A DNA stretch of 64,000 nucleotides, from positions 1 to 64,000 of the forward strand of contig CANNIA010000013.1 of assembly GCA_947504705.1 (NCBI GenBank), read 5' to 3'. The position numbers were made by a program, and so were the translations under genes. The stretch's first letter is position 1. Every line of letters begins with the position of its first letter. Below are positions 46,974-63,921 of the stretch, in pieces. The notes beneath the pieces are model-generated. The model was not told where the DNA came from. It searched no databases and was given only the letters and a program-made list of their open reading frames with translations. This stretch comes from Paracoccaceae bacterium (GTDB lineage: Bacteria; Pseudomonadota; Alphaproteobacteria; Rhodobacterales; Rhodobacteraceae).

Positions 46974-48665
46974 TTAAGTCGGCGGCAGAACCCCGGGCCA
47001 GAGCCGTTCCGCTTCGGCCCGGGAATAGCGCCCCAGCGCCACGTCACGGGCAAGGCTTGCCGGATCGCGTCTTGCCGGGTCGCCATAACCCCCGCCACCC
47101 GGTGTGCGGACCCGCACCCGGTCGCCCGGCTTTAGCGCAATGTCCTGCGCCTTGGACAGATGCTCGGGCACCATGACCACGCTATCACGTGTCACCTCCA
47201 CCCGGTTCACCGCCCCATCACCGCCCCCCAACGCGCCCTGAGGCCCGGTGCGGCCATGGTCCATCACGAAACTCGCCCGCGCTTCGCCGCGCAGAAGCTC
47301 GATTTCGTAGTCGAGGCCCAACCCACCCCGATACTCCCCCGCCCCGCCCGACCCTTCGTGCAGGGCATAATGGCAGTAAAGCACCGGATATGTCTGCTCC
47401 ATGATTTCGACCGGCGGAGCCTTGGAAATGCCAATTGTCGAACACCCGTTCGCAATCCCGTCGCCGCCCGCAAAGCCGCCATAGCCGCCGCCAGAAATCT
47501 GGTACATGACAAAATCACGGCCCTTCTCCGGGTCATTGCCGCCAAGGCCAAAGTTGCCCGAGGTGCCAGCCGGAGCCGCAGTCACCCGATCCGGCACCGC
47601 CTGCACCAAAGCGGCAAACACAGCTTCGGCGATCCGCTGGCTGACTTCCGCCGCGCAGCCCGAAACCGGGCGCGGATAGGCGGCGTCGAGGAAGGTGCCT
47701 TCGATCCCGGTGACATGCAGGGGTTCAAAAGCGCCCGCAGAAATCGGGACATCGGGGAAGATGTGCCGCATCGCAAGGTAGACCGATGACAGGGTCGTCG
47801 CCCGGACCGAGTTCATCGGACCCCGGCAAGGGTCCGAGGAGCCAGAAAAATCGAAGGTCAGGTCGTCGTCTTTGCGCGTGACGGTCAGGGCGATGGTCAG
47901 GGGTTCGTTCACCACCCCGTCGCTGTCGATATAGGCGCGGGCCTGATAGGCACCTGCGGGAATAAGCCCAATCATCGCCCGCATCTGCCGGGCGGCAAGG
48001 CGGCGCATTTCGGCGATGGCCTCGGTCACCGTGGCATCGCCATAGCGGTCCAGAAGCCCCGCCAACCGGTCTGCGCCCACCATCAGGGCCGAGGCCTGCG
48101 CCTTAACATCGCCGATCCGTTGTTCGGATACCCGGATGTTGGAACAGATGATCTGGTAGATTTCCTGATCCAGCACGCCCTTCTTGAACAGCTTGACCGG
48201 CGGCAGGCGCAGGCCCTCCTGTTCGGCGCTGATCGCGGATGCCGAAAACCCCCCCGGCACCGCACCCCCGGTGTCGGGCCAATGGCCGGTGTTGGAAAGC
48301 CAGCAGAAGATCTCGCCACAGCGCCAGACGGGCATGGCGAAGCGCACGTCCATCAGATGCGTGCCTCCCAGATAGGGGTCGTTGACGATGTAGATATCGC
48401 CCGGTTCCGGTGCGGCAGTTATCCCGTCGCGGATACGTTCCAGAATCGTCCGAGTGGAAAACTGCATGACACCGACAAAGACCGGCAGGCCTTTAGCGCC
48501 TTGCGCGATCAGGCTGCCATCCGTGGCAGAGTAAATGCCGTCCGACCGGTCGTCGGCCTCGGCGATCACGGGGGAGAAAGCGGCGCGCGAAAAGGTCAGG
48601 TCCATCTCGTCGCAGACCTGCTGCAGGCCCGCTTGGATGACAGCAAGGGTGACGGGGTCGATCAT
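46974..48665 (-). CDS. hyuB: Hydantoinase B/oxoprolinase-family protein
   Basis: This 563-residue subunit pairs with HyuA in ATP-dependent hydrolysis of cyclic amides (5-oxoproline, hydantoins, related lactams). Family marks include the opening DPVTLAVIQAGLQQVCDEMD, the SPVIAEADDRSDG region, YIVNDPYLGGTHLMD, and the late GGGGYGDP. A GGAGGAG site precedes ATG 48665. It is the last gene of the long minus-strand series and its stop is 3 bp from that of the convergent RND gene. Confidence 0.9.
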   Translation of the reverse strand: MIDPVTLAVIQAGLQQVCDEMDLTFSRAAFSPVIAEADDRSDGIYSATDGSLIAQGAKGLPVFVGVMQFSTRTILERIRDGITAAPEPGDIYIVNDPYLGGTHLMDVRFAMPVWRCGEIFCWLSNTGHWPDTGGAVPGGFSASAISAEQEGLRLPPVKLFKKGVLDQEIYQIICSNIRVSEQRIGDVKAQASALMVGADRLAGLLDRYGDATVTEAIAEMRRLAARQMRAMIGLIPAGAYQARAYIDSDGVVNEPLTIALTVTRKDDDLTFDFSGSSDPCRGPMNSVRATTLSSVYLAMRHIFPDVPISAGAFEPLHVTGIEGTFLDAAYPRPVSGCAAEVSQRIAEAVFAALVQAVPDRVTAAPAGTSGNFGLGGNDPEKGRDFVMYQISGGGYGGFAGGDGIANGCSTIGISKAPPVEIMEQTYPVLYCHYALHEGSGGAGEYRGGLGLDYEIELLRGEARASFVMDHGRTGPQGALGGGDGAVNRVEVTRDSVVMVPEHLSKAQDIALKPGDRVRVRTPGGGGYGDPARRDPASLARDVALGRYSRAEAERLWPGVLPPT

Positions 48666-48762
48666 GCGGGTCTCCTCCAGCCGCTCGGCGCGGCGCGGGT
48701 GCTTGCTTCTCGCTGGGGCGCGTCAGCGATGAGCGCCCGCACGGGAGCGAAGAGCGACCCGG

Positions 48763-50781
48763 TCATGCTGTCACCTCCACGATCAGGTTGCCATCGCTGT
48801 CCGAAGTAACCCTTGTTCCGGGGTCGATGACAATGGTCGTGTCCATCTGCTCGATGATCACGGGGCCACGCAGGTCCAGATTCAAGGGCAAGTGGTCGCG
48901 CCAGTAGACCGGGGTGTCGTGCCAGGTGTCGAACCAGACTTTGCGGATCGAGGCGGGTTCGGCGCTGGGCTTCCGTCCGTCCGGATCGATCAGCCGCGAG
49001 AGGTCCAGCGCCGGGCGTTCACCGATGACCGAGCAGTTGAGGTTCACAAGATTCGCCCGGATCGTTGGCAGGTCGACCCGGAAGCGGGCGTGGTAAGCGA
49101 CCTCAAACAGGCGCTGCAACTCATCTCGGCTGGGGGTGGACGAGGGCAGAGCCACGCGCAGAAGATGGGTTTGGCCGACGAATTGCATATCGGCAGAGAA
49201 TTCAGCGCGGACTTGGGTCAGGGCGATTTTCTCAAGGCCGATCAGGCGGCGGCCTTCGGCCTCTTGAGCGGCGAGGACGCCGTGGACATCCCCCATATCC
49301 ACCACGTCCAGCGGGCGGTTCAGTGTGCGCACGAAGTCATGTCGCAGGTCTGCCACCACGCAGCCAAGCGCGTTGGTGATGCCGGGGCGGGCGGGGATCA
49401 GGACTTTTGGAACGTTCAGTTCACGCGCCAAGGCCACCGCATGCAGCGGCCCCGCACCGCCAAAGGCAAACAGCGCAAAGTCGCGTGGGTCAGCACCGAG
49501 AGAGATGGAGACCATCCGGATCGCCCCCGCCATATGTGTGTTTGCGATACGGATCACCGCTTCGGCGGCCTGTTCGACGGATAGGCCAAGGGGCTTGGCG
49601 ATCTGGTCGTGCATCGCCTGATGGGCCGCCTCAGCCGCCTGACCAAAGCGGCTGGCGGGAAGGCGTCCAAGGATCAGGTTCGCGTCCGAAATCGTGACCC
49701 TCGTGCCGCCCCGGCCATAGCAGACCGGGCCGGGGGTGGAGCCCGCGCTTTCCGGCCCCACCCGCAGCATGCCACCGGCATCGATCCTTGCGATACTGCC
49801 TCCGCCCGCTCCCACGGTCCGCACATCGACCATCGGCACATGGATCGGCATGGCATATTCCACCTCGATCTCGTTCGAGACCGGGGCGATGCCCGCCTTG
49901 ATCATCGCCACGTCCGTGCTGGTCCCGCCCATGTCATAGGTCAGCAAGTTCGCAATCCCCGCCCGCCGCCCGGTGGCAACAGCCGCCATGACACCCGAGG
50001 CGGGACCGGACATCACGGTCTTGACCGCCTCTTTCGCCACATCGCGGGCCGCGACCATGCCGCCGTTGCCGTTCATCACCAGAAGGTCGCGGGCATAGCC
50101 CTTGGCGGCCAACTCGTCGGCCAGCCGTGCAACATAGCGCTCCAGGAGGGGCTGGACCGAGGCGTTCACAGCCGCAGTCACCCCGCGTTCGTATTCGCGG
50201 CTTTCCGACAAAAGCGCATGGCCAAGCGTCACATAGGAGTTCGGCCAAAGGCTTCGCGCAATCTCACCCGCCCGCAACTCATGCGCCGGGTTGGCATAGG
50301 CATGCAGGAAATGGATCACCAGACTTTCGCAGCCCTGATCCCGCAGCTGGATCACCGCCGCGCGCAAAGCGTCTTCGTCCAGCGTGATCAGCACCCTGCC
50401 CCTCGCGTCCATCCGTTCCGGCACCTCAAGCCTAAGGTCGCGGGGGATGACCGGGGTGAAGGAGCCGTACATGCCATAGGCCTGCGGACGGGTGCGGCGG
50501 CCAAGCTCTAAGACGTCGCGAAAGCCCCGCGTGGTGATCATGCCAGTTTTCGACAACTGGCGTTCCAGCACGGCATTGGTGGTCGTGGTTGTTCCATGAA
50601 CAATTAGGTCGATGGTCGAAAGCTCCGTCCCGGCAGCCGCGAAAGCCTCCAGCACCCCGCCCGACTGGTTCGGCAAGGTCGTCGGCACCTTGGCCAGCCG
50701 GACTGCGCCCGTGGCCGGGTCAAAGATCACCAGATCGGTGAAGGTGCCACCCACATCGACGCCTGCGACAAGACCCGCCAT
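48763..50781 (-). CDS. hyuA: Hydantoinase A/oxoprolinase-family ATPase subunit
   Basis: This 672-residue subunit has an actin-like ATPase fold with GVDVGGTFTDLVIFD at the start (phosphate 1) and DMGGTSTDVAMI (phosphate 2). It should phosphorylate the carbonyl of a cyclic amide so that HyuB can help open it. The length is that of a HyuA or N-methylhydantoinase A subunit rather than the fused eukaryotic oxoprolinase. It follows livF directly and precedes hyuB by 97 bp. In this operon the likely substrate is a lactam formed from a reduced N-heterocycle, by inference. Confidence 0.92.
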   Translation of the reverse strand: MAGLVAGVDVGGTFTDLVIFDPATGAVRLAKVPTTLPNQSGGVLEAFAAAGTELSTIDLIVHGTTTTTNAVLERQLSKTGMITTRGFRDVLELGRRTRPQAYGMYGSFTPVIPRDLRLEVPERMDARGRVLITLDEDALRAAVIQLRDQGCESLVIHFLHAYANPAHELRAGEIARSLWPNSYVTLGHALLSESREYERGVTAAVNASVQPLLERYVARLADELAAKGYARDLLVMNGNGGMVAARDVAKEAVKTVMSGPASGVMAAVATGRRAGIANLLTYDMGGTSTDVAMIKAGIAPVSNEIEVEYAMPIHVPMVDVRTVGAGGGSIARIDAGGMLRVGPESAGSTPGPVCYGRGGTRVTISDANLILGRLPASRFGQAAEAAHQAMHDQIAKPLGLSVEQAAEAVIRIANTHMAGAIRMVSISLGADPRDFALFAFGGAGPLHAVALARELNVPKVLIPARPGITNALGCVVADLRHDFVRTLNRPLDVVDMGDVHGVLAAQEAEGRRLIGLEKIALTQVRAEFSADMQFVGQTHLLRVALPSSTPSRDELQRLFEVAYHARFRVDLPTIRANLVNLNCSVIGERPALDLSRLIDPDGRKPSAEPASIRKVWFDTWHDTPVYWRDHLPLNLDLRGPVIIEQMDTTIVIDPGTRVTSDSDGNLIVEVTA

Positions 50782-51480
50782 TCACACCCCCACATAGGTT
50801 CGGAAGACCGGGTCAACCGCTACCAGCCCTACGACATCTCGTATCTCCTCGACCCTACCCGCCCGCATGAAACCCACGCGGTCGGCAAGCTTCAACACGG
50901 CATCGACCCGCTGTTCGACCAAGACCACGGCCACGCCTTGCGCTTTCAGGGTCAGCACCGCCTCCTGGATCAGCGTGATCATCGACGGCTGCAGACCTTC
51001 GGTCGGTTCATCCAGCAAAAGAACCTTCGGGTTCAGACACAGCGCGCGGGCAATGGCCAGCATCTGCTGCTCGCCCCCCGACAGCGTTTGCGCGGTTTGG
51101 GTCAGACGTTCGCGCAGGCGGGGGAACAGCGTCAGCACCCGGTGAAGGGTGTTTTCGTCATTGCCCTGCACCAAGCCGCCGATAGCAAGGTTTTCAGCCA
51201 CCGTCAACGGCCCGAACAGGCGGCGGCCCTGGGGGACATAGGCAAGGCCTCGCTTTGGCACCTGATGCGCGGGCAGGCCTTGCAGCGCAATGCCGTTCAG
51301 CTGGATCGTCCCGGAGGTCGCAGGCAACAGGCCCATCAGGCATTTCAGGAAGGTTGATTTCCCCACCCCGTTGCGGCCCATCAGGCAGGTTATCTGCCCC
51401 GGCTCGGCCCGGAAATCGACGCCGCGCAGCACGGTGAACGGGCCATAACCTGCGGTGATGCCCGAAACCTCAAGCGCCAA
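50782..51480 (-). CDS. livF: Branched-chain-type ABC transporter ATP-binding protein
   Basis: This 232-residue ATPase has Walker A GRNGVGKST, the LSGGEQQ signature and Walker B VLLLDEPTEGL. The true start is very probably TTG 51480 (LALEVSGITAGYG), with a perfect AGGAGG 6 bases upstream (51487-51492); the frame is open to 51549, but that would cover the end of livG with poor sequence. The TTG start overlaps livG by 11 bases. Partner of LivG, LivH and LivM. Confidence 0.93.
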   Translation of the reverse strand: MALEVSGITAGYGPFTVLRGVDFRAEPGQITCLMGRNGVGKSTFLKCLMGLLPATSGTIQLNGIALQGLPAHQVPKRGLAYVPQGRRLFGPLTVAENLAIGGLVQGNDENTLHRVLTLFPRLRERLTQTAQTLSGGEQQMLAIARALCLNPKVLLLDEPTEGLQPSMITLIQEAVLTLKAQGVAVVLVEQRVDAVLKLADRVGFMRAGRVEEIRDVVGLVAVDPVFRTYVGV

Positions 51481-52174
51481 GATAGGCCTCCTGCACGGCG
51501 CGATTGGCGCGGATCGCCTCGGGCGTGCCAGTAGCAAGCACCTGACCAAAGTTCAGGACGGTGATATTGGTGGCAAGATCCATCACCACCTCCATATTGT
51601 GTTCGATCAAGAGGACTGTAGTTTCCGGCACCAGACCTTCCACCAACGCTTTGAAGCCTTCGATCTCGCTGGCCGCAAGGCCCTGGGTCGGCTCATCCAG
51701 GATCAGCAGCCGGGGGTGGAGGGCCAGCCCCATCGCCAGTTCCAACAGGCGCTGATGGCCGTAGGAAAGGGTCTGCGCCTCTTGGCTTTCAAGCCCCGCT
51801 AGGCCGACACGCGCCAGCGCCGCGCGGGTCTGGGCGGCAAGGTCTCGGGTGCCACGGGATTGCACGGCAAGGGCGACGTTGTCGAAGACCGTCAGGCGCG
51901 GGAAGATCGAGGTGATCTGGAACGTATAGGCAATCCCCTTGCGCACCCGCAGATGGGCGGGAAGGCGGGTGATGTCTTCGCCTTCCAGAAGAACGCTGCC
52001 CGACTGCGGCAGGCGGCGACCTGACAGCAGGCTGACAAAGGTGGTCTTGCCCGCCCCATTGGGGCCGATCAGGGCATGGATCTCCCCGGCGTTCAGGATG
52101 AAATCGACGCCATCCACCGCGCGAAGTCCGCCGAAATGAAGGGTAAGGTCGCGGGTTTCGATCAAGGGAGCCAT
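51470..52174 (-). CDS. livG: Branched-chain-type ABC transporter ATP-binding protein
   Basis: This 234-residue ATPase has Walker A GPNGAGKTT, a Q-loop (IAYTFQITSIF), LSYGHQR in place of LSGGQ, and Walker B LLILDEPTQGL. The LivG-type replacement of the signature is common. ATG 52174 (MAPLIETRD) is preferred over the open frame to 52285. It overlaps livM by 13 bases. Confidence 0.93.
   Translation of the reverse strand: MAPLIETRDLTLHFGGLRAVDGVDFILNAGEIHALIGPNGAGKTTFVSLLSGRRLPQSGSVLLEGEDITRLPAHLRVRKGIAYTFQITSIFPRLTVFDNVALAVQSRGTRDLAAQTRAALARVGLAGLESQEAQTLSYGHQRLLELAMGLALHPRLLILDEPTQGLAASEIEGFKALVEGLVPETTVLLIEHNMEVVMDLATNITVLNFGQVLATGTPEAIRANRAVQEAYLGA
51487..51492 (-). promoter_or_regulatory. 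Shine-Dalgarno site fixing the TTG start of livF
   Basis: AGGAGG on the minus strand lies inside the end of livG, 6 bases before TTG 51480. No ATG or GTG of comparable quality is present in this frame. Confidence 0.7.
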
Positions 52175-53127
52175 TTCAGCCCCCTTTCCCGCAACGTGCC
52201 CAAAATGCCCCGTGGCGCGAAGAGGACCAGCACGACCAGCGCGGCACCGATCACGAAGTAATCCATCCCCTCCAGCACCGGCCAAAGCCGCGCCAGCCTA
52301 GACGTGCCTTCGATCAGCACGAACATCAACAACGCGCCAAGGAAGGGGCCGATCGTGGTGCCCGCCCCGCCAAGAAGCACGTAAAGCATCGGCAGGATCG
52401 AATACTGGATCGTCGCAAAATTCGCGCCCGCATAGCCGAAAAGAAGCGCATAAGCCGCCCCCGCCGCCCCGGCATAAAGGCCTGAGATCACAAGGGCTGC
52501 CAGCTTCACCGTAAAGGGGTTGATCCCCAGCATGCGTGAGCGTTCCTCGTTCTCACGCATCGCAACCATGCTGCGGCCAAAGGGCGAGCGGACAAGGGCT
52601 AGGCTGACCAGAAGGCCAATCGCGAAGAGGAAAAGGGCCGCAACGAAGCGGGGGGTGTCGGTCGACATGTCAAAGCCAAGGATCACCCGGCTGGCGGCGG
52701 GCAGGGTAAAGCCCTCGTCGCCGCCGGTGATGGGTCCAAAGTACAGGATGGTCAGGTACCCCGCCTGCGCGAACATCAGCGTCACGATCATGAAACTGAC
52801 CCCCGCCGTGCGCAGTGCTAGAAGACCGACAGCCGCCGCCATACCCCCCCCGGCCAGCACGCCAAGCAGCAGCGCAGGGCCTGCGGAAAGCCCCCAGAAT
52901 TGGGCGGAAAGGCCAGCGGCAAAGACTCCAGCCGCCAGAAACAGCGCGTGGCCAAGGCTCAGAAGACCGGTGTATCCGTAGGCCAGATTGTAACCCATGG
53001 CAAAGACCGCCAGCACAAGGATCCGTGCCAACATCGTCGCCGGATAGGGTGGCAGCACCGCCAGTGCCACGGCCAAGGCAAGGATCAGCGCCAGATGCAG
53101 GGCGAAGGGCTTTACGCTTTCGCCCAT
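52162..53127 (-). CDS. livM: Branched-chain-type ABC transporter permease
   Basis: This 321-residue permease has about nine to ten transmembrane segments and the LivM-typical GYTGLLSLGHALFLAAG and GPITGGDEGF motifs. The C-terminus (APRGILGTLRERGLKWLP) is basic. Start ATG 53127 overlaps the livH stop by one base; a GTG codon directly before it is an alternative. It forms the membrane channel with LivH. Confidence 0.92.
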   Translation of the reverse strand: MGESVKPFALHLALILALAVALAVLPPYPATMLARILVLAVFAMGYNLAYGYTGLLSLGHALFLAAGVFAAGLSAQFWGLSAGPALLLGVLAGGGMAAAVGLLALRTAGVSFMIVTLMFAQAGYLTILYFGPITGGDEGFTLPAASRVILGFDMSTDTPRFVAALFLFAIGLLVSLALVRSPFGRSMVAMRENEERSRMLGINPFTVKLAALVISGLYAGAAGAAYALLFGYAGANFATIQYSILPMLYVLLGGAGTTIGPFLGALLMFVLIEGTSRLARLWPVLEGMDYFVIGAALVVLVLFAPRGILGTLRERGLKWLP

Positions 53128-54005
53128 CACGCTTTCGCTCCGAACAGGCCTTGCGGGCGGAAGACCAGCACCATGGCGACCAGAAGGGTGGCGATGATCT
53201 TGGCAAGGGTGGGCGAGAAGAACATCGAGATCACCCCATCCGACAGCCCGATGATCAGCGCCGCGACAATCGTGCCGCGCAGGCTCCCCAACCCGCCGAT
53301 GATCACCACGATGAACGACAGAAGCAGGGGATCGCCCCCCATCAGATAATGCGCCTGCTGGATCGGCACGATAAGCACTCCGGCCAGCGCGGCCAGTGCC
53401 GCCCCCAGCGCAAAGGTGCCCATATAGACCCGGTCGACATTGATCCCGAAAGCCCTCGCCATGGTGCGGTCAACCTGCGTCGCCCGCATGATCAGCCCGG
53501 CCTTGGTGCGGGTCATGAAGGCCCAAAGCGCAAGGAGGACAAGGGCGGCAGCGACAACGACGAAAAGCTTGTAGCCAGAATAGCCGAACCACGGGAACTG
53601 CAGGCGAAGCTCGAAAGGCGCTGTCACCGGGTTCGCATTGGGCCCGTAAAGCGCAAGGGTTGCCTGCTGGATCATGTAGAGAAGCCCGATGGTCGCGACG
53701 ATGGTCGCCTCGGGATCGTAGTTCAGCCGCTTCAGGATCAATCCATCCGCAACGGCGGCAAGGCTTGCGACAAGCAGCGGCGCTATCACCAGCGCCGCAA
53801 GAAACGCCAAGGCCGGGGGGGCCGGAACCACAGAATCGACGGCCCAGGCAAGCACCGCCCCCAGCATGAAGAAGGCTCCATGCGCCACGTTCACCACCCG
53901 CATGACCCCAAAGAGAAGGCTAAGCCCAGAGGCCGCCAATGCCAGGACGGCGGCGGTCACAAGGCCCTCCATCAGGGCAAGAAGCAGGAAGGGTCCGAAG
54001 GCCAA
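53127..54005 (-). CDS. livH: Branched-chain-type ABC transporter permease
   Basis: This 292-residue permease has about eight transmembrane segments, with SLLFGVMRVVNVAHGAFFMLG near the N-terminus and GGLGSLRGTIVAALIIGL near the C-terminus, both LivH hallmarks. It is separated from the substrate-binding protein gene by 90 bp that hold two palindromes. Confidence 0.93.
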   Translation of the reverse strand: MAFGPFLLLALMEGLVTAAVLALAASGLSLLFGVMRVVNVAHGAFFMLGAVLAWAVDSVVPAPPALAFLAALVIAPLLVASLAAVADGLILKRLNYDPEATIVATIGLLYMIQQATLALYGPNANPVTAPFELRLQFPWFGYSGYKLFVVVAAALVLLALWAFMTRTKAGLIMRATQVDRTMARAFGINVDRVYMGTFALGAALAALAGVLIVPIQQAHYLMGGDPLLLSFIVVIIGGLGSLRGTIVAALIIGLSDGVISMFFSPTLAKIIATLLVAMVLVFRPQGLFGAKA

Positions 54006-54095: not shown

Positions 54096-55370
54096 TCAGA
54101 AGGACATCGTCGTATAGTCGACCGCATCCGGATAGGCGCCATCTTCCATCAACGTCTGATGCACCCGGACCAGCTTGCCGCCCTGAACTTGGCTGATGTT
54201 CTGGGAACCGAAGACTTGGTGTGTCTTGCCGTTAAACACCTTCGCGCCCTGCGGGCGTTCGATCCCGTAAGGCATGTCGGTCATCGCCTCCATCGCTTCG
54301 ACGAACTTCTGCCGGTCGGCGGGGCCTGCATAACCCGAAGCCTCCATCCCCGCCTTGATCGCGAACAATGTCTCCCAGGTGGAAAACATGTGGGAATAGG
54401 TTGCCACATCCGCCGCATCCGACACGCTTGCGCCGTTGTCATCAACCCCGACAGCCGCGCGATAGGCCGCCTCATGTTCGCCTGCATCCGCCGGTTTCAC
54501 CCGGTTATGCGCCTCCCAGAAATGGGTGCCTTCCAGGAATTCGAGGCCCGGCGTTGCGGTATCCACCGCCTCTAGGCTGTCGATAAAGCCGAACATCTGC
54601 GGCTTGGCACCCGAGCCATAGAATTCACCCAACTCCTTGACAAAGGTCAGAACGCCCGGGCCCACCATGACGTGGTAAAGCACCTCGGTTTCCGCCGGGA
54701 TCTGCGCGAAATACTTGGTAAAGCTGGTTTCGGTCGGCGGAACAGCGATCTGGGCGATCACCTCACCCCCTTGCGCCACCATCGCGGCGGTAAAGAAATC
54801 GCGGTGGTCATAGCCGAAGGCAAAGTCCGGGAAGATCATCGCGACCTTTTTGCCAAGGTTCGCCGAAACCCAAGGCGCCATCGCCGAAATCTGGCTGCGC
54901 ACATCGGTGATCCCCGGCTGCAGCGTCCAGCGGTTCAGCATGCCACTGGCCACATGATAGCCCTCGGAACACACCAGATAGGGCACCTTCAACTCCGCCG
55001 CGCGGGGGGCCGAGCCGATGACGACATGGGAAAACAGCGTCCCCATCACCACTTCGCAGCCGTCCGACTGGGTCAGTTTGTCCACCACTTCCGCGCCACG
55101 CGCCGGGTCGGTTGCATCATCATCGAACAGGATCTCGACCGGGCGGCCATTGATGCCACCGCCATCGTTGATCAGCTTCAGTGCCGCCTGCGCGGTGCGC
55201 TCATACCAACGACCATAGGAGGCCCCGATCCCGGTCCGGTGCAGTTGGAACCCGATCTTGATCGGAGCCCCTTGCGCCGCCACATAGCTCGGCAAGGCCG
55301 CCGTCAAAAGCCCGGCACCCCCGGCCATCAGAAGGCCGCGGCGGGTAGGATTGAATGTCGTTTTCGTCAT
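54096..55370 (-). CDS. ABC transporter substrate-binding protein (Liv/amide type, Tat signal)
   Basis: This 424-residue periplasmic binding protein has a twin-arginine-like signal (NPTRRGLLMAGGAGLLTAALPSYVAA at about 7-32) and a type I periplasmic-binding fold (IKIGFQLHRTGIGASYG, LINDGGGINGRPVEILFDDDATDP). It supplies LivHMGF. The close relatives transport amino acids, amides, urea or aromatic acids, so the ligand is not fixed by family. Operon context suggests an N-heterocyclic or amide substrate. Confidence 0.92.
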   Translation of the reverse strand: MTKTTFNPTRRGLLMAGGAGLLTAALPSYVAAQGAPIKIGFQLHRTGIGASYGRWYERTAQAALKLINDGGGINGRPVEILFDDDATDPARGAEVVDKLTQSDGCEVVMGTLFSHVVIGSAPRAAELKVPYLVCSEGYHVASGMLNRWTLQPGITDVRSQISAMAPWVSANLGKKVAMIFPDFAFGYDHRDFFTAAMVAQGGEVIAQIAVPPTETSFTKYFAQIPAETEVLYHVMVGPGVLTFVKELGEFYGSGAKPQMFGFIDSLEAVDTATPGLEFLEGTHFWEAHNRVKPADAGEHEAAYRAAVGVDDNGASVSDAADVATYSHMFSTWETLFAIKAGMEASGYAGPADRQKFVEAMEAMTDMPYGIERPQGAKVFNGKTHQVFGSQNISQVQGGKLVRVHQTLMEDGAYPDAVDYTTMSF

Positions 55371-55445: not shown

Positions 55446-56852
55446 TTATCCGGTCCGGGCTGTGGACAACAACCAAAGACCAAGCACTGTATAAAGCACC
55501 ATCAGACCCGTCATCGGCAGGTGCGCCAAGGGCCTTGTGCCCTGCATTGCCAATTTCAGCCCCAAAACCACGGCCAGCAAGTGCGCTCCAAGGATAGAAG
55601 CGAATTGGGCGGCATAGATCAACGGCATCACCCGCGGGTCGGTCAGGAAGCCGAAGGACACGAAGTAGGGCGGCAGACCCAGCCAGCTATCGCCCTGCAG
55701 GAACGGATCATTCAGCGCGGCCAGCGTGTATTGGCCAGCGGTCAGCAGCATCACAAGGTAATGTGCCGCATGATAGCCCGCCGCGATGGCGAGGAACGGC
55801 AACACAATCTTGCCAGTCGGTAACCGCCCGCTGATCTTGCGCCCCAGCATGACCATTGCAAGGATCAGGCCAAGCGTCAGCCACCACACACCCAGCAGGC
55901 CAGCCGTATTCTCGGCCATAACCGCGCTGCGGCCAACGGGCTCCAGCGGGTTTTGCCCGATCAGCGCTTGCCACCAGAAGGTTTCCGAAAGCCCGTCAAA
56001 GGTCACTGCCGCCAATGCCAAGCTGACAAAGACCACGGCCGAGGCGGAAAGCCCCGGCATCGCCACCACCTGCGCTCCGGGCCAGCCACGCATCAGCCTC
56101 GAGCGCCCCGCAGCCACCTGAAGCCAAAAGGGCGACACCCGCGCGATCATGCCGAAAAGAACAGTGAGAAACTCACCCCTTTCCAGCCAACCCTCGCCCT
56201 CCAGAACGGCAAGGACGAAAATCACCAGCCAATAGCCAAGCCCGACCTTTGCCAGCACCGCTGGATCGTCGGGGTAAAGCGAGACCATCTGGAACCAGGC
56301 AAACCCGAAATAGAACAGAACCGCTGGCCAATGATCCAGCCGACTAAGCCCGATACCTTTGGTCCGTCCCAGCAGAGTGCGCGCAATCCGCACCGGCCCG
56401 GTCCAGGGGTTGATGATCCGCCAAATATTGCCGAGGGCCATCGACCCCAGCGGAACGGCAATCCACACCACGGTCCAGAAGACCAGCGTCATAAGATTGT
56501 GCATCGGGTCACGTTCGCCATAAAATCCGACAAAGACGAGGCCGAGAAACACAAGGAAGGCTAGGTAAGAGGTCAGCGCCTCGGGCAGGATTACCCGGTG
56601 CTCCCACATCAGATGTGGGGCCATGACCGGCAGACGATGCACAATGGCACCTAGCACGCCGGTCAGTGCAACTGTCAGCGCGGCGGCGGCGATGTAAAGT
56701 CCGGTCGGCAGGGTCAGGATAACCGAAGGCGGCAAGGCACAGGCAAAGGCAACCCCGGGCATCAAGAGCAGGCCCACGAGAACCAGCCCCAGAATTTTTG
56801 AAAATTCCGGCCAAAATTCTTCGAAGAATTTTGCTCTTGGCCCCAAGGTCAC
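55446..56852 (-). CDS. Multi-pass membrane protein of unknown function
   Basis: This 468-residue protein has about 11-12 transmembrane segments. I do not recognise the family with confidence. Marks that might help: GFYGERDPMHNLMTLVFWTVVWIAV region, GNIWRIINPWTGP, and histidine pairs in GYHAAHYL and LGAHLLA, which could bind heme or metal. ATG 56852 overlaps the stop of the DUF1185 gene (ATGA). It may be a transporter or a membrane electron-transfer component for the operon. Confidence 0.75.
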   Translation of the reverse strand: MTLGPRAKFFEEFWPEFSKILGLVLVGLLLMPGVAFACALPPSVILTLPTGLYIAAAALTVALTGVLGAIVHRLPVMAPHLMWEHRVILPEALTSYLAFLVFLGLVFVGFYGERDPMHNLMTLVFWTVVWIAVPLGSMALGNIWRIINPWTGPVRIARTLLGRTKGIGLSRLDHWPAVLFYFGFAWFQMVSLYPDDPAVLAKVGLGYWLVIFVLAVLEGEGWLERGEFLTVLFGMIARVSPFWLQVAAGRSRLMRGWPGAQVVAMPGLSASAVVFVSLALAAVTFDGLSETFWWQALIGQNPLEPVGRSAVMAENTAGLLGVWWLTLGLILAMVMLGRKISGRLPTGKIVLPFLAIAAGYHAAHYLVMLLTAGQYTLAALNDPFLQGDSWLGLPPYFVSFGFLTDPRVMPLIYAAQFASILGAHLLAVVLGLKLAMQGTRPLAHLPMTGLMVLYTVLGLWLLSTARTG

Positions 56853-57430
56853 CGCAACCCGTCCTCCCCCTTGACCTGATCCATCTCCAGTCCGCCCATG
56901 CGGCTATGCACCCGCCCCCCGCGTGCCATGGCCAGCGCGAAAAGCACCTCATTCGCCCGCGGCCCGTCCGCGCAAGCCAAGGTGATTACGTCAAACCGAG
57001 ACCGCACGTAGGCCGCGTTCAGATGCCCCATCGGCACGTCCAGCGAGGCCCCCATGCCCCCCACCTTCATCGCGCTTGGCACAATGGCCCGGCATTCCCC
57101 CAGCCGCTCGCGCATCCCGTAACCGCCCGCGACATGCCAAAGCGCGCCATGTTCGGCTTCGCCATTCTCGCCCACCAAGGCTCCTTTGCCATAGGCATCA
57201 ATCCCCTCACGCCCGCCCAAAGCCGCAACAAGACGGTTAGTCAACTCCAGCGCCAAGGGCTTCAAAGCCTCCATGGCGGGCTGCAGATCGGGTTCATAGC
57301 ACCCCGCAAACGGGTTCGCGCAGATCGCATAGATCGCCCCCCGAACCGGCGGCGGCATGACCAAAGGCCCACCCTCATGCCGGATCTCCTCCAGCTGAAC
57401 CACCACCTTACGTACTGCAAAATCAGTCAC
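56849..57430 (-). CDS. Amino acid synthesis family protein (DUF1185)
   Basis: This 193-residue soluble protein matches the family called 'amino acid synthesis protein' (DUF1185): VRKVVVQLEEIRHEGG, ANPFAGCY, IDAYGKGALVGENGEAEHGA and GMGASLDVPMGH. The fold of the family suggests an oligomer; its reaction is not established. It overlaps the UPF0280 gene by 8 bp and the membrane-protein gene by 4 bp, so the three are tightly coupled. Confidence 0.85.
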   Translation of the reverse strand: MTDFAVRKVVVQLEEIRHEGGPLVMPPPVRGAIYAICANPFAGCYEPDLQPAMEALKPLALELTNRLVAALGGREGIDAYGKGALVGENGEAEHGALWHVAGGYGMRERLGECRAIVPSAMKVGGMGASLDVPMGHLNAAYVRSRFDVITLACADGPRANEVLFALAMARGGRVHSRMGGLEMDQVKGEDGLR

Positions 57431-58244
57431 TTGCCCATCTCCCCTGCAGCGCCATCGCGCCGGTCATCATTGCCTCACCCTGAAGGAAAAGTGCGGCCCC
57501 TTCAATCAATCCGCGCTGGCGGTAGCCCTCGGCCACGGCAAAACCTGCAATCAACGCCTGAGAACGTTCCTCTGTCGATAGAAGCGGCACGGCCACGGTT
57601 ACCAGCTGCGCCCCAAGGTCATTGTCGGGCTGCAGCTCCCGCGCCGGACGCCGCAGGATACCCGGATGATCCAGCACCACCGCATTCGCCACCATCGTCG
57701 CCGCCGCATCCGCCATCGCCGCCGTCCGCGCCAGCACCGTCACCGCATCCGCAATACCCAGCGAAAAGCTCCGCCCCCGCCATCCCGATGTCGCAATACC
57801 CCTGACCGGATCGGCCTCGCCAACCGTCACCCGATCCGCCCCCTCGCTTGCGGCAAGGGCACAGGTGAGACTCTCCCCTTCGCCAAGCCACAAAGCTATA
57901 TCTCCGCCATTGTTCGCATAGGCGCGGGCAATCCCCGGCCCGATCAGCGCCGCCAGAACCTCCTCGGCAACCGCCCCGGCAACCGCCGCCATAGGAGTAA
58001 TAAAGGCAGGACGGAACGGCGCCACCGCCGCCGCCATCCGCCGCGCAATTCGCCCTTCGACAGGCCTGCCTTCCGACCGAAGCGCAGGCAGTTCAGCAAC
58101 CAGCTCCTCCAACACCGAAGCAAACCGCCCCGCCGCCTGCATATATCCCGCCTGCACCGCCGCAGGGTTACCAAAGGCCTCGGCCACGATATCAATCGGC
58201 CCATGCTGCAGATGTAGCCGCCTGCCTGGCAGAATGGCCGCCAT
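57423..58244 (-). CDS. UPF0280-family protein (ApbE superfamily)
   Basis: This 273-residue protein belongs to UPF0280, a group placed in the ApbE (FAD:protein FMN transferase) superfamily. ApbE-like marks are NNGGDIALWLGEG, GIATSGWRGRSFSLG and ADAVTVLARTAAMADAAATMVAN. ApbE enzymes attach FMN to threonine or serine of target proteins. The iron-sulfur reductase encoded next to it is a candidate target. Start 58244 (MAAILPGRRLHLQHGPIDI) matches family N-termini; the frame is open to 58397. A role in flavinylation is inference. Confidence 0.85.
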   Translation of the reverse strand: MAAILPGRRLHLQHGPIDIVAEAFGNPAAVQAGYMQAAGRFASVLEELVAELPALRSEGRPVEGRIARRMAAAVAPFRPAFITPMAAVAGAVAEEVLAALIGPGIARAYANNGGDIALWLGEGESLTCALAASEGADRVTVGEADPVRGIATSGWRGRSFSLGIADAVTVLARTAAMADAAATMVANAVVLDHPGILRRPARELQPDNDLGAQLVTVAVPLLSTEERSQALIAGFAVAEGYRQRGLIEGAALFLQGEAMMTGAMALQGRWASD

Positions 58245-58381
58245 CGCGCCTGTCGAATTCCCCTGGCCAAAAAATCCCCGCCGGAGGCGGCCCCCCGAGC
58301 CGGTTGGCCGCAGGCCAGAGGCGAGATAAAAGCCTTGCGGCTGCGCGCGCCTGCGCGGCTGCTCAATTTGAAAAGCGTCCC

Positions 58382-59818
58382 TCACCCCTTGGGCCATGGC
58401 TCGACCCTCGCTTCGGTGGGGTATTCCCCTCCCTCGGCCATGGATTGATCCAGCGTGCGGATCATCTCCTCATGCCCTCCCATCGCGAGATAAGCCTCGC
58501 GCAGGAGCGTAAACTCCAGCGGGGCCACCAAAGCAGGCGTCGGCACGTAACCGAAAGCCCCCTTCGGCAGCCGCTTCACATCGACCATGAAGGTGATCCC
58601 GCCGCCCGGCCAGACATAGGTCTCCGCGCCTCCCGAGGTGAGCCGTGTCACCCCACCCTGCACCGACCGGGTCAGCCGCACCGGGTTCTTGGTCACTCCG
58701 GCCCGCAAGCTGCCCCCCGCGCCGCCCATGAAGAGCACGGTGCAAAGCGAGGGCTCGCAATTTTCGTCGATCAGTCCGACCGTCTTCTTCAAGGCATCAG
58801 GCAGGTCCCGCTCAACGGGCTGCAACGCATCATCCAGCACATAATAGGCAAACTGCTCGCCCGTGGTTGACACCATCAGCAGCCGCAGGCCGGGCCGTGC
58901 ACCCTTCTTCGGGTTCCATTCGCCCAAGATCTCCAACGGATTGGTCAGCCGGGTTCCGCCCCAGCCCTGACCGGCCTCGGACACCCGGAAGTACCGCCCT
59001 GGGGTCGAGCGGTGGCCCTTGATCTTGATCCCCGTCGGCGCCCAGTCAATGACCTTGCCCGCCTGATGTTCGCTGACGACCCCGGTGATATGGTCATCAA
59101 CCACCACCACCTCATCCACCAGCCCCTGCCATTGCACCGCGAACATGCCGATAGTCGCGGACCCGCAGCCGACCCGCATCCGCCGCTCGCGCACCCCATC
59201 GACAATGGGGGCCTGCCCGGCCTGCACAGTGACGTGAGAGCCGCCCTCGATCTCCATCTCGACCGCTTCGCCATTGCAAAGCGCCAGCATCGCCGCACAG
59301 GTCACCCGGCCTTCGGCCTTGCCCCCCCCGGTCAGGTGGTGAACGCCGCCCAGCGACAGCATCTGAGACCCATATTCCGCCGTCGTCACATGGCCAATCG
59401 GTTCCCCCTGCACCCGGATCACCGCCCCTTCCGGACCAAGGAACCGGTCGGTGTCGATCTTCACCTTGACCCCGCAATAGGAAAAGATCGCCTCTGTCAC
59501 CACCGTAACCATATCCGCGCCGTCCACCTGCGAAGACACGATAAACGGCGCGGGTTTGTAGTCCGGGTAGGTCGTCCCCGAGCCGATCCCCGTTACAAAG
59601 GCATCCGCCGGAACGGGCGAGCCATCCCAATCCCGAGCTGCGAAAGGCACGACGCGGCCCCCAGCCTCGACCGTGTTCGACAGCAGGATCACCGGGTCCG
59701 TCCGCACGATCCGCCCGGCCGCATTGGCATAACGGTCACAAGCCCCGGTCATCCCCGGCGCGATGTAGCACATCACCGGACAGGCATCGCAACGGATTTT
59801 TTCGGGGGCTTCCGTCAT
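58382..59818 (-). CDS. 6-hydroxynicotinate reductase-like iron-sulfur protein
   Basis: This 478-residue protein resembles 6-hydroxynicotinate reductase of reductive nicotinate catabolism (Eubacterium barkeri type). An N-terminal cluster C10-x2-C13-x3-C17-x9-C27 looks like a [4Fe-4S] site; further cysteines occur in SYCGVK, CAAMLALC, VGCGSA and NCEPSLC. At residues 79-84 the sequence GSGTTYP resembles the S-G-A-T site used for covalent FMN attachment, with threonine at 83. It should reduce a hydroxylated N-heterocycle using low-potential electrons. The donor is not encoded next to it. AAGAGGG precedes ATG 59818. Confidence 0.78.
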   Translation of the reverse strand: MTEAPEKIRCDACPVMCYIAPGMTGACDRYANAAGRIVRTDPVILLSNTVEAGGRVVPFAARDWDGSPVPADAFVTGIGSGTTYPDYKPAPFIVSSQVDGADMVTVVTEAIFSYCGVKVKIDTDRFLGPEGAVIRVQGEPIGHVTTAEYGSQMLSLGGVHHLTGGGKAEGRVTCAAMLALCNGEAVEMEIEGGSHVTVQAGQAPIVDGVRERRMRVGCGSATIGMFAVQWQGLVDEVVVVDDHITGVVSEHQAGKVIDWAPTGIKIKGHRSTPGRYFRVSEAGQGWGGTRLTNPLEILGEWNPKKGARPGLRLLMVSTTGEQFAYYVLDDALQPVERDLPDALKKTVGLIDENCEPSLCTVLFMGGAGGSLRAGVTKNPVRLTRSVQGGVTRLTSGGAETYVWPGGGITFMVDVKRLPKGAFGYVPTPALVAPLEFTLLREAYLAMGGHEEMIRTLDQSMAEGGEYPTEARVEPWPKG

Positions 59819-59906: not shown

Positions 59907-62576
59907 TCATGATTTGTCCTCTAGTGCCAAATGCAAACGATGTGGCAGGGCCGGAACGCGGGTGATTTCAGCCCCGGTGGCATGCCGGATGGCGTTCAGG
60001 ATCGCGGGGGCAGTCGGGATCAGGACATGTTCGCCAAGGCCCTTGGCACCAAACGGTCCTTCGGGGTCGGGGACCTCGATGATCAGGCTTTCAATCAGGG
60101 GAACGTCGCCCATGGTCGGGATCAGATAGTCATGCAGGTTTTCGGTCCGCCCCGGGAGATATTCCTCCATCAGCGCCATGCCGATGCCTTGGGCGATGCC
60201 GCCCTCGATCTGGCCACGCACCAGCATCGGGTTGATCGCGCGGCCCACATCGTGTGCTGCAATGATCTTCAGAAGTTTGACGGTTCCAAGCGCGCGGTCG
60301 ACCTCAAGCTCTACCATCTGCGCACCGTAACCATAGACCGCATAGGGCGCGCCCTGACCGTTCTGGTCCAGGGGCTTGGTCGGCGGGTCATAGCTGGCCT
60401 CGGCAGACAGCGCATGGCCATGGACATCGGGCACAAGGCCCGCAAGGTCGATCCGGGTTGTGTGGCCCCGGTCGGCGACAACCACCGTGCACGGTTCCAG
60501 CCTGAGGATCGCACCTTCACCCGCATTGGCGCGGCGCAGCACTTCGGCCCGGAGCTTCTCGGCAGCACCCTTGGCGGCGCGACCTGTGACATAGGTCTGG
60601 CGGCTGGCCGAAGTCTTGCCTGCATCCGGTGTCAGTCCGGTGTCGGGTCCAATCAAGCGAAAAGTCGAAAGCGGCAGGCCCAAAGCCTCACTCGCGATCT
60701 GGGCGATGACAGTGTTGGACCCTTGGCCGATGTCGGTTGCGCCCTGATGCAGCACCACCTCTCCCGCAGGCGACAGGCCAATGCGGATGGTCGAGGGGTT
60801 CGGCAAGGCCGTATTGCCGCAGCCATACCAGCAAGAGGCAACGCCCACGCCTCGCCCAGGCTTGTCCTTGGCCTCAGCCACCGCGCGCTGCCAATGCAGG
60901 CGCAGTGCCAGAAGGCAATCGTGGATTCCGACCGCCTGCAGGACATGCCCCGTGGCCGAAGCATCCCCGTCACGGAGAGCATTCAGGATGCGGAACTCCA
61001 GCCGGTCGATCCCAGCTTTGTCGGCCAGTCGGTCGTAAAGCGTTTCCTGCCACAAGGCCCCTTGCGGCACGCCAAAGCCCCGGAACGCCCCCGAAACTGG
61101 CCCATGCGTATGGATCGCCCGGGCTTTTGCCGAGATAGCGGGCGTGAAGTATGGCCCCGACACATGCACCGGCACCCGGTTCGCCACCGTCGGCCCCCAG
61201 CTGGAATAGGCCCCGGTGTTGAACCGGCCCTCAAACTCCATCCCGGTGATCCGGCCCGCAGCGTCACAACCGATCCGCCCCCGCATTTCTGCCGGATGCC
61301 GTTTGGTGGTCGAGGTCATGCTTTCGTGGCGGCTATAGACCATCCGGCAGGGCCGCCCGGTTTTCAGCGTGACCAGCCCGATCAGGGGTTGCAGCGAAAT
61401 ATCCAGTTTCGAGCCAAACCCCCCACCCACCGCCGAAGGGATGATCCTGACCCGCTCCATCGACAAACCAAGGATCGCCGCCGTATCCTCACGGTCCATG
61501 CCGGGGGCCTGCGTGCAGGCGCGGATGACAAGGGTGTCGCCGTCCATCCAGGCCGCACCGGCCTCGGGCTCGATATAGGCGTGTTCGACGAAGGCGGTGG
61601 TCATCTCGCCTTCGACAACATGGGCCGATCCGGCCAGCGCGGCAGCAACATCGCCCTTGATCACCCGGCCCTCGATCAAAAGGTTGCCTGCGCGGTTCGG
61701 GTGCAAAGGTTCGCCGACTTCCGCCTGTTCCGGCGTGGCAAGTGCGGGAAGAGGTGCCCAAGCGATTGGAAAGTCAGAAAGCTCGGGTTCAGCCCCCGGC
61801 TCAAACGCCACCAACGCCACGCATTCGCCGCGGAACTTGGCCGGAGAGGCGGCGATGGCGGGTTGGTCAGCAAAGGGCGGGATGACGGAAAAGGCGTTGC
61901 GGCCGGGGATATCCTCGACGGTGAAGATGGCGGCAACACCCGGCTTGGCGCGGAAGGCAGCAAGGTCGCCGATCCTGAATTCAGCATGCGGATGGGGCGA
62001 GCGGATGGCCTTTACTATTAGCGACCCCTCGGGCCATTCATCCGCGCCGAAACTGTCGCCTGCGACCTTCGCGGTCCCATCAACGCGGGCGATTGCCGCC
62101 CCGACCGCCCCCTGAACCAAAGGTGCAATGGCACCCTGCCCTGCGGCCACCACAGCGGCGATGATGCTGCGATAGCCGGTGCAGCGGCACAGAACGCCAC
62201 CAAGCGCCGTCTCGACCTCGGCCTCAGTGGGCTTGGCATTCCGCTTCAAAAGCCCCGCCGCCGTCAAAAGCATTCCCGGCGTGCAGATCCCACATTGCGC
62301 AGCGCCGTGGGTGTGAAAACTGGCGCGCAACCGCGTCAGTTCCGGTGTTTCACCCTCGATGGTCGTAACGGCCCGCCCCGCCACCCGCGCAGCAGGTGTC
62401 AGGCAAGCGCAAACCGCCGCCCCGTCGATCAGCACCGTGCAGGCCCCGCAATCACCGGCATCACAGCCGATCTTGGTGCCGGTCTTGCCCAAGCGTTCGC
62501 GAAGGGTCTCGGACAGCCGTTCGGTTGGCGGGGCCTCCACCTCGACAACCTTGTCGTTCAGCGTAAAGCGGATCAT
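59907..62576 (-). CDS. Molybdenum hydroxylase, fused [2Fe-2S] and Mo-cofactor subunit (xanthine/nicotinate dehydrogenase family)
   Basis: This 889-residue protein joins a two-domain [2Fe-2S] ferredoxin unit (about 1-155; C38, C43, C46, C58, then QCGICTPG and LCRCTGYR) to a molybdopterin-binding large subunit (about 165-880). The latter contains the DIGQGSNTVI-type cofactor region and the active-site Glu in AKGLGEHVLIP. The family inserts a hydroxyl from water next to ring nitrogen in purines, nicotinate and related compounds. It pairs with the FAD subunit just upstream, whose stop overlaps its start (ATGA). Confidence 0.93.
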   Translation of the reverse strand: MIRFTLNDKVVEVEAPPTERLSETLRERLGKTGTKIGCDAGDCGACTVLIDGAAVCACLTPAARVAGRAVTTIEGETPELTRLRASFHTHGAAQCGICTPGMLLTAAGLLKRNAKPTEAEVETALGGVLCRCTGYRSIIAAVVAAGQGAIAPLVQGAVGAAIARVDGTAKVAGDSFGADEWPEGSLIVKAIRSPHPHAEFRIGDLAAFRAKPGVAAIFTVEDIPGRNAFSVIPPFADQPAIAASPAKFRGECVALVAFEPGAEPELSDFPIAWAPLPALATPEQAEVGEPLHPNRAGNLLIEGRVIKGDVAAALAGSAHVVEGEMTTAFVEHAYIEPEAGAAWMDGDTLVIRACTQAPGMDREDTAAILGLSMERVRIIPSAVGGGFGSKLDISLQPLIGLVTLKTGRPCRMVYSRHESMTSTTKRHPAEMRGRIGCDAAGRITGMEFEGRFNTGAYSSWGPTVANRVPVHVSGPYFTPAISAKARAIHTHGPVSGAFRGFGVPQGALWQETLYDRLADKAGIDRLEFRILNALRDGDASATGHVLQAVGIHDCLLALRLHWQRAVAEAKDKPGRGVGVASCWYGCGNTALPNPSTIRIGLSPAGEVVLHQGATDIGQGSNTVIAQIASEALGLPLSTFRLIGPDTGLTPDAGKTSASRQTYVTGRAAKGAAEKLRAEVLRRANAGEGAILRLEPCTVVVADRGHTTRIDLAGLVPDVHGHALSAEASYDPPTKPLDQNGQGAPYAVYGYGAQMVELEVDRALGTVKLLKIIAAHDVGRAINPMLVRGQIEGGIAQGIGMALMEEYLPGRTENLHDYLIPTMGDVPLIESLIIEVPDPEGPFGAKGLGEHVLIPTAPAILNAIRHATGAEITRVPALPHRLHLALEDKS

Positions 62577-63418
62577 GCCAAGGCCTCCGCCAGGGCCCGG
62601 CGGACAAGTTCCACCGCCGCCGCGCGCCGGTAGGCCGCCGTCGCCCGCACATCATCGATGGGGGAAAGCGCGGCCTGAACGTCATGCGGCGTTACCCGCC
62701 CAATGGCGTCCGCCACCGAAGCGCCCTGTAAGGCCGTCTCAACCAGTGGCAACCGTACGGCGACCGGGGAGCAGGACCCGACCGCGACAGCCGCCTCAAC
62801 CACCCGACCCTTATCGACAACCACCCGCGCAGCGACCATGGCGATCGAGATCACCAGATGCAACCGCGCGCCCAATTTCACAAAGGCCGACCTGCCGGAG
62901 AGGCCCGCCTCGGGGATCACGACCGCCGCCATAACCTCACCCGGCAAAAGGGCCGTCCGACGCGGGCCAAGCAGGAACTCCTGCAAGGGAAGCCGCCTTG
63001 AGCCCTTTGCTGAGACCAGTTCAACCCCTGCCCCCAAGGCCAGCAGCGGCGGCACACTGTCCGCCGCAGGCGAGGCGTTGCAAAGGTTTCCGCCGATGGT
63101 CCCGGCATTCTGCACTTGCCGCCCGCCGATCTGCCGCGCCGCCTGCTGCAGGGCGTTCAAAGCGGGGGGCAACCGGGCCTCGGCAATCGAAGTCCAGGAC
63201 ACTGCAGCACCAATCCGCAGCCCCTGCCCCGACACGATCCGAGAAAACTCCGGCAGGCCGGTCACATCCAGCACCGGCCCCGCCAACCCGCTGCCTGCCC
63301 CCGGATACAGGTCCGTCCCCCCGGCCAGCACCCGCCAGTCACCCGCAGCCATCAGCCGCGAGGCCTCATCTACCGTCGATGGTCGGGCATAGTCCGGCAC
63401 GGCAAACCCAAAGTTCAT
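62573..63418 (-). CDS. Molybdenum hydroxylase FAD-binding subunit (CoxM/XdhB type)
   Basis: This 281-residue FAD protein has the typical N-terminus FAVPDYARPSTVDEASRLM, the FAD motifs VLAGGTDLYPG and NAGTIGGNLCNASPAAD, and the CO_deh_flav_C-like end. It passes electrons from the Mo/Fe-S protein to an acceptor. It is the first gene of the long operon. Its leader has no clear Shine-Dalgarno sequence, and AT-rich bases (TATACAT) abut the ATG. The MarR gene lies divergently 83 bp away. Confidence 0.92.
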   Translation of the reverse strand: MNFGFAVPDYARPSTVDEASRLMAAGDWRVLAGGTDLYPGAGSGLAGPVLDVTGLPEFSRIVSGQGLRIGAAVSWTSIAEARLPPALNALQQAARQIGGRQVQNAGTIGGNLCNASPAADSVPPLLALGAGVELVSAKGSRRLPLQEFLLGPRRTALLPGEVMAAVVIPEAGLSGRSAFVKLGARLHLVISIAMVAARVVVDKGRVVEAAVAVGSCSPVAVRLPLVETALQGASVADAIGRVTPHDVQAALSPIDDVRATAAYRRAAAVELVRRALAEALA

Positions 63419-63501
63419 ATGTATAGAAACAGTATTGCGACCCGGCCCCCGAGTCTGTCAACAGCCTTGCACGGATCACCCTCACGTCGTATCGCGTTGG
63501 A

Positions 63502-63921
63502 ATGACGGATGCAAAAGACTATCGCCTGGATGACCAGATCGGCTATGTCCTGCGCCGGGTGACGCAACGGCATCTGGCGATCTTTGCCGCAGCAATCCCC
63601 GAGGTCACCACCACCCAGTTCGCCGTGATGGCCCGGTTGGCCGAGGTTGGCCCCCTGTCGCAAAACCACCTTGGCCGGGCAACCGCGATGGATGCGGCGA
63701 CGATCAAGGGCGTGGTGGACCGGCTGGCAAAGCTTGACTTTGTCGAAACCGCCGCCGACCCCGAGGATCGCCGCCGCCTGACCGTCTCGCTGACCAAAGC
63801 CGGCTCGGCAATTGTCGCCGCCAAGGTCGCGACGGCGCTTCAGGTCTCAGGCAAAACGCTTGCCCCGCTGACGGCTGACGAATCCCGAACGCTTATGGCG
63901 CTGCTCCTGCGGCTGACCTGA
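63502..63921 (+). CDS. MarR-family transcriptional regulator
   Basis: This 139-residue winged-helix regulator has the MarR core (TTQFAVMARLAEVGPLSQNHLGRATAMDAATIKGVVDRLAKLDF by position about 37-80, then DPEDRRRLTVSLT as the wing). It is divergent from the catabolic operon and shares its 83-bp promoter region, so it probably controls it. MarR repressors such as NicR regulate nicotinate catabolism genes in other bacteria. No perfect palindrome was found in the intergenic region. Confidence 0.9.
   Translation: MTDAKDYRLDDQIGYVLRRVTQRHLAIFAAAIPEVTTTQFAVMARLAEVGPLSQNHLGRATAMDAATIKGVVDRLAKLDFVETAADPEDRRRLTVSLTKAGSAIVAAKVATALQVSGKTLAPLTADESRTLMALLLRLT

Follow-up and report, generated by a model that had tools for sequence, protein, structure and literature searches.

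A putative nicotinate-degradation operon of a Paracoccaceae bacterium in which HyuAB may take the place of enamidase

The window analysed here, a 64,000-nucleotide stretch of contig CANNIA010000013.1 from a Paracoccaceae bacterium (GCA_947504705.1), carries thirteen minus-strand genes that run from 63418 to 46974, with consecutive open reading frames (ORFs) overlapping or lying no more than 97 bp apart, and a plus-strand MarR-family gene that diverges from them (Table 1). The run encodes a molybdenum (Mo) hydroxylase, a 6-hydroxynicotinate-reductase-type protein (HNR), a UPF0280 protein, a DUF1185 protein, a multi-transmembrane protein, a Liv-type ATP-binding cassette (ABC) importer and HyuAB. 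A sequence-only reading of this DNA had described the same near-gapless genes, their families and the divergent regulator; all thirteen lie where it placed them, Pfam and NCBIfam searches (for HNR, public annotation of homologues) bear out the family names, and the MarR gene recurs in relatives. ORF starts were assigned mechanically, hence the extensive overlaps of the livG, livF and UPF0280 frames; reading livG from its more probable start at 52174, as judged from the translation, leaves 13 bp shared with livM, the maximum that had been noted. The gene-order comparison that the same reading had proposed found identical genes in identical order, again with a divergent MarR gene, on a plasmid of Fuscovulum ytuae, and because of this gene-for-gene recurrence the arrangement is more than chance. 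We interpret the operon as a system for nicotinate uptake and reductive breakdown via 1,4,5,6-tetrahydro-6-oxonicotinate (THON) in which HyuAB would replace enamidase as the ring-opening enzyme, and we put the probability of this reading, which draws on sequence comparison, at about 0.74.

Table 1. Features of the operon and its divergent regulator, with positions in the window.
Feature	Position	Strand	Basis and remarks
MarR-family regulator	63502..63921	+	PF12802/PF01047; divergent MarR also at L057 and other close loci
Promoter/operator-like region	63416..63461	-	TTGACA 63456-63461; palindrome-like element 63416-63431 overlapping start codon
Mo-hydroxylase FAD subunit	62573..63418	-	PF00941, PF03450
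Fused [2Fe-2S]/molybdopterin hydroxylase subunit, proposed nicotinate 6-hydroxylase	59907..62576	-	PF00111, PF01799, PF02738, PF20256
6-hydroxynicotinate-reductase-type protein (HNR)	58382..59818	-	Name given by public annotators to many homologues
UPF0280 protein, predicted ApbE-like fold, proposed HNR flavin transferase	57423..58397	-	NCBIfam PRK04334.1-2 above cut-off; true start probably downstream of 58397
DUF1185/AA_synth protein	56849..57430	-	PF06684; PDB 3BYQ, 2QTP
Multi-transmembrane protein	55446..56852	-	13 hydrophobic segments, some overlapping
Periplasmic substrate-binding protein, Liv type (Peripla_BP_6)	54096..55370	-	PF13458
LivH-type permease	53127..54005	-	PF02653
LivM-type permease	52162..53130	-	PF02653
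LivG-type ATPase	51470..52174 (likely start; ORF reaches 52285)	-	PF00005, PF12399
LivF-type ATPase	50782..51549 (ORF; true start probably near 51470)	-	PF00005
HyuA, ATP-binding subunit of proposed ATP-dependent THON lactamase	48763..50781	-	PF05378, PF01968
HyuB, metal-binding subunit of proposed lactamase	46974..48665	-	PF02538, 521 bits

We examined which ring-opening enzyme accompanies HNR across genomes. Within the order, 97 of 390 genomes have HNR, as do 32 of 398 from a phylum-wide draw; six are common to both, giving 123 HNR-positive genomes. The Hyu probes were the window's HyuA and HyuB, and the enamidase probe was the amidohydrolase of a Sulfitobacter pontiacus HNR cluster, which matches the solved Eubacterium barkeri enamidase (PDB 2VUN) across nearly its full length (E 1e-106). 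Near HNR, 207 loci comprised 66 with Hyu, 47 with enamidase, 94 with neither and none with both. Half of the loci with neither (47 of 94) belong to the 120 genomes for which HNR surroundings of up to 20 kb were fetched (all except the window's own genome, G543 and G732); these are an artefact of the -8/+12 kb span used around HNR and disappeared after whole-genome search. The remaining 47 are named records whose flanks reach 10 kb at most, in part on short contigs, and stand outside the 123-genome tally. Each of the 123 genomes was then searched in full for the enzyme that its HNR surroundings lacked, at limits of E 1e-40 and 1e-150: 56 carried only a HyuA orthologue, 64 only an enamidase, three carried both and none lacked both. 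The limit for orthology is clear-cut, with HyuA orthologues at least 59% identical versus 43-47% for the paralogues listed. The window's genome as a whole has no enamidase match at E 1e-40 and has HyuAB instead; the earlier remark that the classical enamidase is missing thus extends to the entire genome, and the concern it raised for the pathway is resolved by the complementarity of the two enzymes.

As controls we used 80 of the 293 HNR-negative genomes of the order. None of the 80 had a HyuA orthologue (eight had paralogues at 43-45% identity), and none had an enamidase above 44% identity (one stood at 44%). The complementarity of HyuA and enamidase gives a Fisher p of 7e-32, a value that ignores kinship. 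Because HyuA and enamidase are complementary among HNR-positive genomes and absent from HNR-negative ones, HyuAB most likely opens THON with ATP. Linkage alone does not account for the co-occurrence of HyuA and HNR: of the 30 genomes whose HyuA came to light only in the whole-genome search, 16 have it on a different contig or more than 25 kb away from HNR. On the HNR tree the Hyu/enamidase label changes five times, four of these changes being forced by well-supported branches, and G141, G078 and G178 each form an isolated Hyu row in the enamidase clade. A second tree without G405 and G353, whose rows contain stops, still had five changes. The three genomes with both enzymes were excluded from these counts and included in the independent-pairs test described below.

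If HyuAB were a side enzyme for an imported lactam or hydantoin (5-oxoproline or an N-substituted hydantoin) that travels with the transporter, the HNR product would be opened by an unlinked enzyme or spontaneously. HyuAB does adjoin the ABC genes, and of four remote HyuAB places that were read, three (L265-L267) adjoin this system's binding and transmembrane proteins rather than HNR, the fourth (L264) having neither within 12 kb. Transporter type is also partly correlated with the ring-opening label: Hyu-only loci comprise 30 with a Liv transporter, 10 with a fused type and 15 with none in the region, and the corresponding numbers for enamidase-only loci are 14, 31 and 17. Nevertheless, the ten Hyu-only loci just mentioned carry the other transporter type, none of the 123 HNR genomes lacks both a HyuA orthologue and an enamidase, and none of the 80 HNR-negative genomes has either. 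We consider a side role for HyuAB quite improbable.

The residues of HyuAB are consistent with ATP-dependent lactam opening. The ATP motifs of the A subunit (DxGGT, DMGGT and GxxPGP; PMC8453981, excerpt) are kept in HyuA as DVGGT at 9, DMGGT at 283 and PGP at 350, and alignment to 6YRA_B pairs the CapB metal ligands D41/H99/D102/H124 described in the same excerpt with D39/H103/D106/H128 of HyuB. Subunit architecture, ATP motifs and the four metal ligands are thus shared with CapAB and OplAB (PMC8453981 and PMC11033972, excerpts), and OplAB relatives use ATP to open the six-membered delta-valerolactam (PMC11033972, excerpt). Unlike in CapAB and OplAB, the predicted substrate of HyuAB is an enamide lactam with a carboxylate. 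HyuAB is a relative of caprolactamase and not caprolactamase itself, because both subunits fall far under the NCBIfam cut-offs (487.5 bits for HyuA with the alpha model and 303.9 bits for HyuB, each against 1000). A carboxylase was rejected as well, acetophenone carboxylase models being outscored by the caprolactamase model. Enamidase yields 2-formylglutarate and ammonia; opening of the THON amide by HyuAB would give an enamine whose hydrolysis would lead to the same two products.

HyuAB is tied to nicotinate by the clusters that it shares with the nicotinate hydroxylase NicAB, which we found in Neorhizobium, Paracoccaceae La 6, G024 and G115; in the La 6 cluster, identity is 70% for HyuA and 78% for HyuB. 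At the 120 fetched HNR loci the first-step enzyme is a fused xanthine-dehydrogenase (XDH)-type hydroxylase at 104 and NicAB, recognised with its cytochrome c domains, at 12, with neither linked at four. From the presence of NicAB in its place at those 12 loci, we propose that the window's Mo-hydroxylase is a nicotinate 6-hydroxylase. Neither its Mo subunit nor its FAD subunit attains any cut-off in an NCBIfam search. The best model for the Mo subunit, Se-dependent xanthine dehydrogenase, scores 550.5 bits, under its cut-off of 830.45. That top model is what might suggest purine or xanthine-type catabolism, with xanthine dehydrogenase acting alongside a hydantoinase; given the unattained cut-offs, the absence of any purine-degradation family among the thirteen proteins and the match of HNR to nicotinate clusters, such a role is very improbable and was rejected.

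HNR itself has no significant match in Pfam or NCBIfam. The window's protein is up to 72% identical to HNR from genomes with NicAB clusters, and Cys 10, 13, 17, 27, 115, 218 and 354 are invariant in an alignment of 14 sequences. Its AlphaFold model is mediocre (predicted local distance difference test, pLDDT, 71.9; predicted template modelling score, pTM, 0.62) and gave no match in a PDB search at E 0.001, and we drew nothing from it. Two HNR genes of other genomes (G353:C5:158259-159687 and G405:C1:2969823-2971252) match in two pieces with stops when read through, reflecting either broken genes or sequencing errors.

The same logic could serve another pyridine (trigonelline after demethylation, picolinate, isonicotinate or a pyridone), with HyuAB opening the matching lactam. 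Neither the Mo subunit nor the binding protein, when searched against the PDB, allowed substrates to be told apart: the specificity of the Mo-hydroxylase is unreadable from its sequence, and the PDB relatives of the binding protein do not name a ligand, the best of them (4EY3, E 2e-16, partial coverage) being uninformative in this respect. A VanA-type Rieske oxygenase that could demethylate trigonelline to nicotinate is present in some relatives. HNR, however, is also part of the published nicotinate cluster and at some loci, HyuAB-bearing ones included, stands together with NicAB, and HNR of the enamidase clade is found in HyuA-only genomes. Another pyridine is therefore an unlikely substrate. 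The sequence-only reading had left open that the substrate may differ; because HNR belongs to the published nicotinate cluster and NicAB occurs in 12 of the 120 loci, some bearing HyuAB, it is narrowed to nicotinate or 6-hydroxynicotinate. The Rieske oxygenase occurs at 15 of the 120 loci and in the roseobacter clusters L058:18546-19616, L060:18541-19611 and L062:19064-20131 (family checked for L058), these three each with a ferredoxin-NADP reductase nearby.

UPF0280 is near HNR at all 120 fetched loci, directly downstream of it at 116, and was found at E 1e-5 in none of the 80 HNR-negative genomes, with a positive control of 12 out of 12. HNR of E. barkeri is said to bear a covalent flavin (work by Alhapel, 2006). 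The predicted UPF0280 structure (pLDDT 94.1) matched 18 PDB chains at E <= 0.001, all of them 2O34, FmnB or ApbE/Ftp, with DVU1097 (2O34) nearest at 24% identity. The modelled fold thus resembles the ApbE/FmnB flavin transferases, although identity to the ApbE-type matches is only 9-16% and the template modelling scores are modest (0.26-0.51). The segment AD184AAAT188 is one that we take to resemble an ApbE motif. Because UPF0280 is constantly adjacent to HNR and absent without it, it is the best candidate for the HNR flavin transferase and probably attaches the covalent flavin, for which T82/T83 in the conserved TTYPDYKP region of HNR would be a candidate position. No paper in the literature searched mentions UPF0280 by name, and the sources contained no assigned function for it.

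DUF1185 lies within 6 kb of HNR at 115 of the 120 loci. Structures of this family have been solved without a function (PMC2954203, excerpt), and relatives named HcdD and TgnF belong to other catabolic pathways (PMC7913881, excerpt). Two adjacent copies are present in 52 of 62 enamidase-only loci (e.g. L058:17365-18524) and nine of 55 Hyu-only loci, 42 of the latter having a single copy. The multi-transmembrane protein has no Pfam match up to E 1; it shares 35% identity with a protein from a Neorhizobium HNR cluster, and relatives also occur in the three remote HyuAB-transporter clusters.

The predicted course of hydroxylation, reduction by HNR and opening of the THON ring parallels the nicotinate fermentation cluster reported for E. 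barkeri. There, unlike here, the ring is said to be opened by enamidase (2VUN) rather than HyuAB, and the downstream fermentation genes are missing from the window's operon. According to PMC3511419 (excerpt), A. caulinodans, B. japonicum, R. palustris and strain SG-6C share a conserved cluster assigned to nicotinate breakdown via THON. It encodes the first three steps, an ABC importer, two conserved unknown proteins and an HNR homologue that has 42% identity with its E. barkeri counterpart. Because that cluster has been described, the cluster type is already known, and the exchanged ring-opening step is the new part. Judging from loci L130-L135, presumed to be Bradyrhizobium, we infer that the two unknown proteins are UPF0280 and DUF1185; their place in the cluster core, like the earlier description of the cluster type, goes beyond what the sequence-only reading had recognised. 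These presumed Bradyrhizobium loci have NicAB, with enamidase near or up to ~10 kb beyond, whereas the window has a fused XDH-type hydroxylase with a FAD subunit and HyuAB. A literature search for THON or HNR in combination with hydantoinase found only PMC3511419, in which hydantoinase is not mentioned. Among the publications covering two of nicotinate, enamidase and hydantoinase, none by title concerns an exchange of HyuAB and enamidase.

The gene set and the comparative data support the course outlined in the sequence-only reading, namely import, hydroxylation beside the ring nitrogen, partial ring reduction and ATP-dependent lactam opening, all as predicted steps. The Liv-type system would import nicotinate, which the Mo-hydroxylase would convert to 6-hydroxynicotinate and HNR, with its flavin attached by UPF0280, to THON. 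HyuA would then activate the THON lactam with ATP and the metal site of HyuB would open the ring to 2-(aminomethylene)glutarate, so that an oxoprolinase/caprolactamase-type enzyme would stand in for the ATP-independent enamidase of E. barkeri. Loss of ammonia would give 2-formylglutarate, leading toward glutarate. Once the ring is open, DUF1185 might act on the enamine or on the formyl acid, which is the weakest step of the scheme, and MarR would repress the operon until its ligand is present.

The promoter region is compatible with a single MarR-controlled transcript. Of 41 sequences examined (the window, L057, L064-L075, L097 and L184-L209), 27, including the window, yielded a divergent MarR/FAD-subunit intergenic region (25 distinct sequences). 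TTGACA is present in all 27, and an exact TTTGN4CAAA follows downstream of it in 12, the window's own element not among them. In L074 and L206, which are identical in sequence, the 8-base arms of this element form a perfect palindrome; that of the window is degenerate, with the best arms lying elsewhere and reaching 4 of 8. The 16-base site of the window has one exact occurrence in the genome and one further with three mismatches. Because the FAD-subunit gene, the first of the operon, has its ATG right beside the operator-like element, the transcript may be leaderless. Past MarR the neighbourhood switches to an old-yellow-enzyme-like oxidoreductase, a Fur-type regulator and ribonucleotide reductase (names read from translations). 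Elsewhere in the window, four minus-strand tRNA genes (Asp, Asp, Val, Val) lie inside 2.5 kb at 33866-36307.

Several points weigh against breakdown of nicotinate with HyuAB as ring opener. We know of no activity or growth phenotype for HyuAB-bearing members. G206, G508 and G576 carry both enzymes, and correction for kinship leaves four independent pairs with branch support. All four agree with expectation, but with so few the sign test (p 0.125) cannot reach 0.05, for which six or more pairs would be required. The partial tracking of transporter type with the label, described above, points the same way, as does the skew of the second DUF1185 copy toward enamidase-only loci, which possibly reflects mere kinship. 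The Mo subunit scores 370 bits with aldehyde oxidoreductase 1DGJ and 236 bits with the nicotinate dehydrogenase of E. barkeri, 3HRD_A, so that a nicotinate hydroxylase is unidentifiable from its sequence alone. The seven invariant cysteines of HNR are too few for the iron-sulfur content that the E. barkeri enzyme reportedly has. Finally, the scheme does not explain why ATP is spent on an enamide when enamidase needs none to hydrolyse it.

More broadly, two unrelated openers of the reduced nicotinate ring, the ATP-independent enamidase and the ATP-driven HyuAB, may have been repeatedly exchanged, with UPF0280 serving as a dedicated HNR flavin transferase, a combined claim that we advance tentatively and at slightly less than even odds. 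If true, a function would be gained by a HyuAB clade for which hydantoinase and acetophenone carboxylase are the only annotations, the absence of enamidase from 56 of the 123 sampled HNR genomes would be explained, and UPF0280 would acquire a concrete role and DUF1185 a pathway context. It would also raise the question of why ATP is paid for a step that enamidase performs without it.

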